DNA of 64,000 nt from NCBI RefSeq assembly GCF_019670005.1, contig NZ_AP019783.1:4056150-4120149 (forward strand). Reading direction: 5' to 3'. The position numbers and the translations under genes are program-made. This DNA is from Methylomagnum ishizawai (lineage in GTDB: Bacteria > Pseudomonadota > Gammaproteobacteria > Methylococcales > Methylococcaceae). Positions 37,721 to 39,362 of this stretch are shown here, one piece after another; the stretch's first letter is position 1, and every line of letters starts with the position of its first letter. Under the pieces are notes generated by a model. The model saw nothing but the letters and a program-made list of their open reading frames with translations. It did not search any database and was not told where the DNA came from.

Positions 37721-38614
37721 ATGACCACCCCCGCCTCCCCTATCGATGTGCTTTGCGTGGGCCATGCCTCCTACGATCTAGTGTTCGCGGTGCCACGCCA
37801 TCCGGAAGCCGATGAAAAAATCTTCGCCGACGGCTTGATCGCCTGCGGTGGCGGTCCCGCCGCCAATGCCGCCGTCACCGTGGCGCGGCTCGGGTACCGG
37901 GCGGCTTTCGCGGGCTATCTGGGCCTGGACGCCCATGGCGAACTGCATCACGCCGAATTGCTGCGCGAGGGCGTCGCAACCGGCCTGATCGCACGGGGCG
38001 CTTCGCCGACGCCGCTCTCGACCGTCTTGGTGAAGCCGGATGGCCGCCGCGCCCTGGTCAACTACAAGGGCGATACCCGCCCGTTGCCCGTCGACGCCAT
38101 CGATTTTTCCACCCTCCTGCCCAAGGTCGTGTTGTTCGACGGCCACGAACCCGAGCTATCCGCCCCGCTCCTCGCCCACGGCATTCCCAGCGTGCTGGAC
38201 GCGGGTTCGCTGCACCGGGGGACCGAGGCATTGATGTTCGCGGTCGATTACCTCGCCTGCTCCGAGAAATTCGCCCGGCAATGGCTGGGGGAGGACGATC
38301 CGCAACGCGCCTTGGCCGCGCTGGCCGAACGCTCGCCCGCCGTGGTCATCACCCTGGGCGAACGCGGCCTGATCTGGCGCAAGGATGGCGAATCGGGCGC
38401 GCTGCCCGCGTTCCGGGTCGAAGCCGTGGACACCACCGGCGCGGGCGACGCTTTCCATGGCGGCTTCGCGGCGGGATTGGCGGCGGGCTTGGATTGGCCG
38501 GGCCTGCTGCGCTACGCCAGCGCGGCGGGAGCGTTGTGCTGCGAACGCCTGGGCGCGAGGCCCGGCCTGCCAGACTTGGCCCGGTTGCGTGGACTATTGG
38601 AAACCCAAGTTTGA
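37721..38614 (+). CDS. PfkB-family carbohydrate kinase
   Basis: The protein has 297 residues of the ribokinase/PfkB fold. The glycine motif GGGPAANAAVTVARLG binds the substrate. The C-terminal signature DTTGAGDAFHGGFAAGL carries the catalytic Asp and anion hole. VVITLGERGLIW is the usual beta strand before it. The sugar substrate is not evident; ribose, fructose or a ketohexose are all options. It follows bamD by 29 bases on the same strand and may share its transcript. Confidence 0.87.
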   Translation: MTTPASPIDVLCVGHASYDLVFAVPRHPEADEKIFADGLIACGGGPAANAAVTVARLGYRAAFAGYLGLDAHGELHHAELLREGVATGLIARGASPTPLSTVLVKPDGRRALVNYKGDTRPLPVDAIDFSTLLPKVVLFDGHEPELSAPLLAHGIPSVLDAGSLHRGTEALMFAVDYLACSEKFARQWLGEDDPQRALAALAERSPAVVITLGERGLIWRKDGESGALPAFRVEAVDTTGAGDAFHGGFAAGLAAGLDWPGLLRYASAAGALCCERLGARPGLPDLARLRGLLETQV

Positions 38615-38679
38615 AGCCCGCGCCGCCGCCGTCACAAAAGTGTTGACATCGCCGTTTTAACCTTGAAAGCTAAGTGGTT

Positions 38680-38848
38680 TAGGAACCCCCGTAAGGGGAT
38701 TTCATCGCCTCGTGTTCCCAAGGGTATGAGGCCGACAATCTGGTCCCCAGGCGGGGGACCGATCATCAGTTCTTGATCTCCGTGCCATTCGTTGAGCAGC
38801 TGATGGATTTAATGAGGATGGCACAGCGTTCTGCACGGTGTTTTTCAG
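38680..38848 (+). promoter_or_regulatory. structured 5' leader of the RRM gene
   Basis: About 170 bases before the RRM start form a chain of hairpins. CCCC-GTAA-GGGG (38687-38698) has a GNRA loop. GCCTC/GAGGC lies near 38707-38732. GGTCCCC (38742-38748) pairs with GGGGACC (38754-38760). GTGCCAT (38782-38788) pairs with ATGGCAC (38818-38824), just before the gene. A TTGACA box at 38643-38648 could be the -35, but I found no -10 at correct spacing. It matches no riboswitch class I know; autoregulation by the RNA-binding protein is an inference. Confidence 0.5.
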
Positions 38849-39139
38849 ATGATGAATATCTATGTCGGCAATTTGTCATACCAACTCAGCAGCGAAGAAT
38901 TGCGCGAGGCTTTCGAGCAATTCGGCGAGGTCAGTTCCGCCAACGTGGTGATGGACAAGCTCACCGGACGCTCCAAGGGCTTCGGCTTCGTGGAGATGCC
39001 CGACCGCGCCAGCGGCGAGGAAGCCATCAAGCAACTCGACGGCGCCCCGCTCAAGGGCCGCAACGTGCGCGTCAACGAAGCCCGTCCGCGTGAAAACCAG
39101 GGCGGCTTTCCTCCGCGCCGCGCTCCCCGGCGGGCCTGA
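38849..39139 (+). CDS. RRM-type RNA-binding protein
   Basis: The protein has 96 residues. It has a single RNA recognition motif with RNP2 IYVGNLSY (4-11) and RNP1 SKGFGFVEM (42-50), followed by a short Arg/Pro-rich tail (RRAPRRA). This is the small Rbp type found in cyanobacteria and many proteobacteria, often cold-induced. Two ATG codons lie in tandem; the second could be used. No strong ribosome binding site precedes it; instead a structured leader does, which suggests translational control. It is followed by its own terminator. Confidence 0.93.
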   Translation: MMNIYVGNLSYQLSSEELREAFEQFGEVSSANVVMDKLTGRSKGFGFVEMPDRASGEEAIKQLDGAPLKGRNVRVNEARPRENQGGFPPRRAPRRA

Positions 39140-39149
39140 TGCCGCCCAG

Positions 39150-39195
39150 ACCGCTGTCTCGCCCGTGGCCAAGCGCGGGGGGGACAGCGGTTTTT
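39150..39195 (+). terminator. rho-independent terminator of the RRM gene
   Basis: The stem ACCGCTGTC (39150-39158) pairs with GACAGCGGT (39183-39191), with a G/C-rich partly paired loop, followed by five T residues. It begins 10 bases after the RRM stop codon. Confidence 0.85.
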
Positions 39196-39362
39196 CCCGC
39201 CTCCCGTCCCCATGCTACTGCCGGCCCGGCCCCATCGGTGCCTTGTGCGTTCGCCACCCCGGCACTATGCTTGCCGACCTCCGCCGCGACGGCGCGCCGG
39301 CCCTAGCCGGCCGGGCCGCCCCAAGGCGGTCCGCATTCCCGCCACCCGACCGCGAGCCTCCC

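Follow-up and report, generated by a model that had tools for sequence, protein, structure and literature searches.

This locus raised the question of what the long leader in front of a small RNA-binding protein gene of Methylomagnum ishizawai is, and what it does. Bacterial RRM proteins are widespread and, to our knowledge, few of them have a known RNA target. The window, that is, the whole stretch of 64,000 nt of contig NZ_AP019783.1 that was analyzed and to whose positions all coordinates refer, belongs to a genome of the family Methylococcaceae, together with that of Methylotetracoccus oryzae. The leader lies in the 234 nt that separate a pfkB-type kinase gene (37721-38614) from the RRM gene (38849-39139), whose product matched Pfam RRM_1 (78 bits) and NCBIfam NF058537 Rbp_regulator (118.5 bits, cut-off 100). 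The first-pass annotation of this DNA had drawn four hairpins in the leader, had seen no clear ribosome-binding site, and had proposed a cis-regulatory RNA that might sense cold or the RRM protein itself. The features of the locus are as follows:

38643-38648, plus strand: TTGACA, a possible -35 box without a clear -10 (weak lead)
38682-38703, plus strand: hairpin A, CCCC-GUAA-GGGG with a GNRA loop (predicted fold; not conserved)
38709-38730, plus strand: hairpin B (predicted fold; not conserved)
38742-38760, plus strand: P0, or hairpin C, GGUCCCC-AGGCG-GGGGACC, abutting the 5′ side of the pseudoknot (predicted fold)
38763-38777, plus strand: 5′ strand of S1, the first stem of the pseudoknot, UCAUCAGUUCUUGAU (finder and covariation)
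38778-38781, plus strand: loop 1 (CUCC), with variable letters
38782-38790, plus strand: 5′ strand of S2, the second stem, GUGCCAUUC, within the S1 loop (finder and covariation)
38791-38806, plus strand: 3′ strand of S1, GUUGAGCAGCUGAUGG, with one bulged base (finder and covariation)
38807-38815, plus strand: loop 3, AUUUAAUGA, with variable letters
38816-38824, plus strand: 3′ strand of S2, GGAUGGCAC, ending 24 nt 5′ of the first ATG (finder and covariation)
38837-38840, plus strand: GGTG, a putative weak Shine-Dalgarno-like site (read from the sequence)
38849-39139, plus strand: RRM gene, 96 aa, with the RNP motifs IYVGNL and KGFGFVEM
39150-39195, plus strand: terminator-like stem ACCGCUGUC/GACAGCGGU followed by a T run (read from the sequence)

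The predicted fold of the leader reached -72.6 kcal/mol, compared with -60.8 ± 4.4 kcal/mol for dinucleotide shuffles, none of 200 being as good. Its conserved core is an H-type pseudoknot (38763-38824) with a 5′ hairpin (38742-38760), rather than four hairpins. The longest conserved helix, S1 (38763-38777 with 38791-38806), in which UCAUCAGUUCUUGAU pairs with GUUGAGCAGCUGAUGG, crosses stem D and so creates the pseudoknot; because a nested fold cannot show such a crossing, this main helix is absent from it. Stem D, the 7-bp stem GUGCCAU/AUGGCAC, reaches nine pairs when extended (38782-38790 with 38816-38824) and is the S2 of the pseudoknot, GUGCCAUUC pairing with the downstream GGAUGGCAC. The window's S1 comprises 15 pairs and its S2 nine, with loops of 4 nt (loop 1), 0 (loop 2) and 9 nt (loop 3), and the median stem lengths among the leaders compared below were 12 pairs for S1 and nine for S2. 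GTG was present within the S2 5′ strand in 62 of 86 leaders. The earlier description of the leader held up in its main point but gave a mistaken anatomy: the 7-bp stem close to the start codon was real and covaried as S2, but S1 had been missed.

All four hairpins could be drawn in the window; C recurred and D covaried, whereas A and B were not conserved beyond the genus. The GNRA hairpin announced earlier is present in the window, but it was not seen conserved outside the genus: neither A nor B was found in the leaders aligned from other genera, and the leader L003, of the same genus, retains hairpin A with a GGAA loop. A dedicated test for a hairpin at the place of P0 was significant in 38 of 86 leaders, compared with 8 of 86 when a control place was used; when the stretch 5′ of S1 was tested for folding in general, the signal was weak (z < -1.64 in 19 of 86 leaders vs. 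5 of 86). A simple hairpin located 5′ of stem D, GATCA/TGATC, was rejected with 83% of its cells paired and zero double changes, and S1 was preferred.

The pairing was then compared between genomes. The block 38724-38900, or part of it, was common to the leaders of the same gene in eleven loci of relatives (L003-L013), with 70-97% identity. Two covariation alignments of more distant leaders were built with MAFFT on sequence alone, without fitting to the structure. In the alignment of 27 distant leaders, 89.2% of the cells paired, compared with 28-45% when the partners were slid by 1-3 columns; changes on both sides occurred in 13 of 20 pairs, and 38 double-change cells were counted vs. 10.5 in shuffles (0 of 500 as high). 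The second pair of S2, for instance, was U-A in 13 leaders and C-G in seven. Similar results were obtained with 22 other leaders, which take in three from Chlorobi and one from Scalindua: 85.9% of the cells paired (31-43% when slid), both sides had changed in 14 of 16 pairs, and 51 double-change cells were found vs. 16.8 in shuffles, again with 0 of 500 as high. Since the aligned rows are related, these shuffle counts are not probabilities. In addition, the rows were chosen because the finder described below or the eye had located a pseudoknot in them, a selection that inflates the proportion of paired cells but does not by itself create an excess of double changes over shuffles. The weakest helix of the 27-leader alignment was the outer part of S1 (75.8% paired), whose 3′ side looks displaced in several rows, where short indels seem to have escaped the alignment. 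RNAalifold on its own proposed S2 alone, because it cannot draw pseudoknots. The covariation analysis suggested earlier for the hairpins was passed by the 7-bp stem and by the unforeseen S1, but failed by hairpins A and B, which were not conserved outside the genus. The pseudoknot leader is real and conserved in many gammaproteobacteria, its letters changing while its pairs keep matching, and its placement is that expected of a regulator.

Locating the pseudoknot in single leaders required a finder. The first two finders were too permissive, shuffles scoring nearly as well, and they were replaced by a geometry-limited one. Because this finder was designed while looking at the loci L001-L083, a later set, for which the best 80 of 576 RRM loci were taken, represents the fairer test. 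Under a strict rule, set after finder scores had been seen, a leader counted as positive with at most 1 of 40 shuffles as good and a score of -22 or lower; a looser rule for the later set admitted up to 3 of 60 shuffles. Removal of eight near-duplicates reduced the 72 positive leaders of the first set to 64, and these, together with 22 of the 25 gammaproteobacterial loci of the later set (L171, L173, and L217 excluded), made up the 86 leaders used throughout; L171 and L173 repeat genomes already present in the first set. A covariance model limited to S2 (R1) was also tried and set aside; it performed well in the family of the window (23 of its genomes) and weakly outside it, where it matched three RRM leaders (L049, L050, and L051) and three loci without a nearby RRM gene (L048, L052, and L053).

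When leader halves were swapped, scores were lower on average (-32.2 for the native leaders vs. -25.2 and -25.0). When related donors were allowed, the swaps as good as the native leader numbered 114 of 768 and 64 of 768, and the native leader beat all 12 of its swaps in 26 of 64 and 30 of 64 cases. With 12 dissimilar leaders, the swaps that did as well fell to 12 of 82 and 1 of 82, and the mean loss was 8.5 and 9.2 units. The possibility that these are chance pairings in a G+C-rich leader, without any conserved structure, draws on two observations: 6 of 319 sampled gene upstream regions of the window's genome (crude ORF calls, window included) scored as well as the RRM leader, and the first 13 leaders (12 distinct, all close) taken alone showed no covariation beyond shuffles, with one double-change pair and 158 of 500 shuffles as high. 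A single pseudoknot score in a G+C-rich leader is therefore worth little, and the case rests on the comparison between genomes. There, the double changes in both stems of the 27 and the 22 distant leaders, unequaled in 500 shuffles, and the collapse of pairing when the partners were slid make chance pairing scarcely credible.

The place of the pseudoknot relative to the ribosome-binding site was also constant. With the search open from 0 to 75 nt, the distance from the end of S2 to the start codon was 12-27 nt for 80 of the 86 leaders, with a median of 20 nt, so that the pseudoknot ends just upstream of the Shine-Dalgarno region. The absence of a clear ribosome-binding site noted earlier was roughly right for the window gene, in which only GGTG at 38837-38840 was seen, but it does not extend to the other leaders, a GAG/AGG-like motif being found in 81 of 86. 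The proposal of a cold- or self-sensing RNA tied to the RRM gene fared differently in its parts. The view that the leader acts in cis as a regulatory RNA linked to this gene is well supported by its position, its covariation and its spread, and self-sensing would still be the best mechanism for it.

The cold-sensing part corresponds to a temperature switch, in which the pseudoknot would form in the cold or melt in the heat and so change the translation of a cold-response RRM gene. The cspA leader is a model for such a switch and cyanobacterial RRM genes are cold-induced; moreover, the element lies in an untranslated leader and adjoins the ribosome-binding site. Nevertheless, the masking of the Shine-Dalgarno region expected of a thermometer was not found in these leaders, this region lying outside the pseudoknot. 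The predicted openness of positions -14 to +3 was not shifted one way either: the mean unpaired fraction was 0.45 without and 0.47 with the pseudoknot, whose formation raised it in 26 of 86 leaders and lowered it in 24 of 86. Furthermore, the stability of the stems, of about 12 and about 9 pairs, varies widely, which does not suggest adjustment to a single melting temperature. The cold-sensing claim was thus left unsupported, and we regard a temperature switch as quite improbable.

The distribution of the element among RRM genes was then examined. Relatives of the RRM protein (E ≤ 1e-15) were detected in 148 of 369 genomes of Gammaproteobacteria. In a first set of 117 leaders, which combined those of the preceding comparisons with 30 loci from this search and 60 taken from part of its list, 72 carried the pseudoknot under the strict rule. 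In the later set it was found in 24 of 25 leaders titled as gammaproteobacteria or lineages of this class vs. 16 of 55 others under the looser rule, and in 22 of 25 vs. 12 of 55 under the strict one. The finder detected no pseudoknot before 19 RRM genes belonging to other classes of the same phylum, nor before 12 LYVGNL-type RRM genes of Gammaproteobacteria in the first set, a count that leaves out L055 and L068, which the pattern for N-terminal types had wrongly assigned to the remaining types. The window's genome has seven RRM matches, and four of the six other RRM genes were run in the finder (L024 and L025, the other genes of tandem RRM pairs, being excluded), with a pseudoknot in none of the four. 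As a separate observation, the two tandem pairs of this genome (C1:3309948-3310488 and C1:4355395-4355952) consist of genes of the LYVGNL and RVYAGNL/RIYAGNL kinds, and the LYVGNL gene of both pairs is preceded by a plain GGAG ribosome-binding site.

The tie to one gene family was not complete. Among the N/K-IYVGNL-type genes of the class in the first set, 33 of 103 missed the strict rule, some narrowly (2 of 40 shuffles) and some without any pseudoknot. The paralogues of genome G512 carried their own versions in all four cases run, with differing letters. Outside the class, the finder was passed by three loci from Chlorobi, one from Scalindua, and others, titled for example Hydrogenedentota, Verrucomicrobiota, Lentisphaerota, and Kiritimatiellota. 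In a protein tree built by a quick method (212 rows, 84 columns; 101 of 209 inner branches open), a group of 48 rows that was otherwise gammaproteobacterial (support 96) contained the three Chlorobi proteins, and the Scalindua protein grouped with gammaproteobacterial ones (five rows, support 92). The presence of the pseudoknot required 26 changes on this tree vs. 43.2 in shuffles, 0 of 500 being as low. Because these Chlorobi and Scalindua proteins nest among gammaproteobacterial ones, gene and leader may have moved together.

This distribution bears on whether any protein is involved. The leader could be a plain 5′ structure that senses nothing and, as a stability or standby element, protects the mRNA from decay or aids 30S loading. 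Its constant place about 20 nt 5′ of the start codon would agree with that, as would loop letters that are not conserved and a ribosome-binding site that is not consistently masked. However, the element stays with one RRM family and was missing from the four other RRM genes run in the window's genome; one would expect a generic stability element to precede many genes. We therefore consider a protein-independent structure unlikely.

The likeness to known RNAs was assessed with Rfam. No match was obtained in the window at the gathering threshold, nor in 18 relatives, and Chlorobi-RRM (RF01697) gave none at E ≤ 5 in 38500-39250. With its gathering score of 45 bits, RF01697 had no hit above the cut-off in 339 genomes of Gammaproteobacteria. 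Among the 47 weaker matches listed, at least eight fell in gammaproteobacterial RRM leaders and ended 27-31 nt before the RRM match, the L065 leader (22.3 bits) being one example of a sub-threshold match. Three Chlorobiaceae loci matched RF01697 at 73-82.5 bits, and at these loci, independently of the Rfam scan, the finder had located a pseudoknot of the same kind.

Both RNAs lie in the leader of an RRM gene and consist of a 5′ hairpin followed by a stem-loop that corresponds to S1. In RF01697 this stem-loop bears a conserved UUGUGC loop, and the model ends 29 nt before the ATG in L204. The Rfam model, however, contains two nested hairpins and no pseudoknot, and it stops before the 3′ strand of S2. 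The segment just past its end can pair with the conserved UUGUGCUUUG loop of the model, so that the same pseudoknot as in gammaproteobacteria can form in the three Chlorobi leaders examined, where S2 is intact except for one mismatch and hardly varies. The loop of Chlorobi-RRM may look conserved because it pairs with this segment. The letters of the window differ from RF01697 throughout, and its genome belongs to Methylococcaceae, not Chlorobi; of the features of the family, the window has the RRM-gene leader and the 5′ hairpin with a stem-loop at a fixed distance from the start codon. Chlorobi-RRM looks like the same element in Chlorobi. Built and placed like RF01697, the window element is most aptly described as a class-wide variant of Chlorobi-RRM RNA with a pseudoknot; it was not filed as a member of the family, since it does not reach the family's own score. 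Apart from the Chlorobi-RRM entry, no RRM-gene leader pseudoknot was reported in the literature matches listed, most subscription journals being outside their scope.

The statement that the leader resembles no known riboswitch holds, yet the leader does resemble this catalogued cis-regulatory RNA, Chlorobi-RRM RF01697. A riboswitch, or an operator for another trans-acting factor with a metabolite, an sRNA or another RNA-binding protein as its ligand, would be compatible with the fold, H-type pseudoknots being possible riboswitch scaffolds. Conserved unpaired letters, as a sign of a ligand aptamer, were sought in the loops of the 86 leaders and not found: in loop 1 and both ends of loop 3, no position exceeded about half one letter, unlike a ligand pocket. 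The catalogue of Weinberg et al. 2010 (PMC2864571) classes Chlorobi-RRM as a probable RNA with a probable cis-regulatory role that is probably not a switch, and a pseudoknot may already have been considered there. A riboswitch or similar operator is accordingly quite unlikely. Variable loop letters, without the fixity of a ligand pocket, speak for a protein or shape ligand.

We lean toward regarding the leader as a cis-acting translational operator, whose pseudoknot would be bound by the RRM protein encoded downstream, with feedback repression as in T4 gene 32. Structure, covariation, spacing, the tie to one RRM gene family and the likeness to Chlorobi-RRM were observed; from them we infer autogenous repression, since the element stays with one RRM family and paralogues keep their own versions, since the leader seems to travel with the gene, and since T4 gene 32 and the Bacteroides protein RbpB give precedents. 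In the proposed mechanism, the transcript would fold into the 5′ hairpin and then the H-type pseudoknot, whose 3′ edge would border the Shine-Dalgarno region on its upstream side, some 20 nt from the start codon. The RRM protein would recognize its own leader through the pseudoknot and the neighboring single strands, relying more on shape than on particular loop letters, and at high abundance it would block 30S loading at the adjoining ribosome-binding site. The leader thus probably lets the RRM protein control its own production. Against it count the 33 of 103 N/K-IYVGNL-type genes that fail the strict rule, the loci outside the class that pass it (12 of 55), not all of which are accounted for, and the absence of the UUAAA repeats of the T4 operator, no UUAAA or UAAA repeat being present in 38825-38848. 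RRM domains, furthermore, generally favor single strands, which counts against recognition of a pseudoknot.

Among the precedents, rpsO/S15-type ribosomal-protein operators are likewise autogenous pseudoknots in bacterial leaders; the rpsO pseudoknot overlaps the ribosome-binding site, whereas that of the RRM leader ends upstream of it. Another analogy is T4 gene 32, although gp32 has an OB fold and RRM is an unrelated protein fold. According to the available part of the account (PMC535899), gp32 recognizes a leader pseudoknot located 5′ of the ribosome-binding site, and structure outweighs letters in this recognition. Both leaders place a pseudoknot 5′ of a less structured ribosome-binding site, and in both the downstream gene encodes a protein that binds nucleic acid. 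In T4 the pseudoknot is located further upstream and UUAAA repeats, which the RRM leader lacks, come after it; the autogenous binding demonstrated for T4 would apply here by analogy (PMC535899, available part). For RbpB, the available text (PMC11697453) describes a binding site on its own mRNA, from which its authors suggested autoregulation. That part of the account describes no pseudoknot leader and reports binding mainly within single-stranded regions, which again counts against pseudoknot recognition (PMC11697453). By our finder, the Bacteroidota loci of the later set were mostly without a pseudoknot.

A broader proposal can be advanced with more reserve. The element may be a class-wide autogenous operator recognized by shape, with its own letters in each paralogue, and transferred along with the gene to Chlorobi and to Scalindua (Planctomycetota); of this element Chlorobi-RRM would be a truncated description. 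It would correct and widen the catalogued Chlorobi-RRM, placing the same element before the RRM genes of many gammaproteobacterial families. The conserved leader pseudoknot would be a candidate natural ligand for each of these bacterial RRM proteins, together with a simple control assay. Moreover, a shape-recognized operator, if true, would be relevant to the way in which a small RRM protein with a single domain acquires its specificity.

With respect to the ends of the transcript, the TTGACA at 38643-38648 recurred in six other leaders of the family (L005, L006, L007, L009, L011, and L012). It is a weak lead, because the promoter scan 5′ of the leader reported no sigma-70-like site there. The terminator-like hairpin just 3′ of the stop codon suggests that the RRM transcript ends at 39150-39195; the terminator scan, whose rule admits loops of 3-8 only, did not report it.

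Additionally, two further groups of RRM leaders were noted. Seven leaders from another class of the same phylum (L146, L149, L150, L152, L162, L163, and L166) shared a block AAATCC...GGATTT followed by TTGAGGA, in which the finder detected no H-type pseudoknot; this block is possibly a second type of RRM leader. The loci L228, L235, and L239, titled Verrucomicrobia, Lentisphaerae, and Kiritimatiellae, had a common leader that scored as a pseudoknot with a 4-nt second loop, and the proteins encoded downstream were of the MDIYVGNL type.
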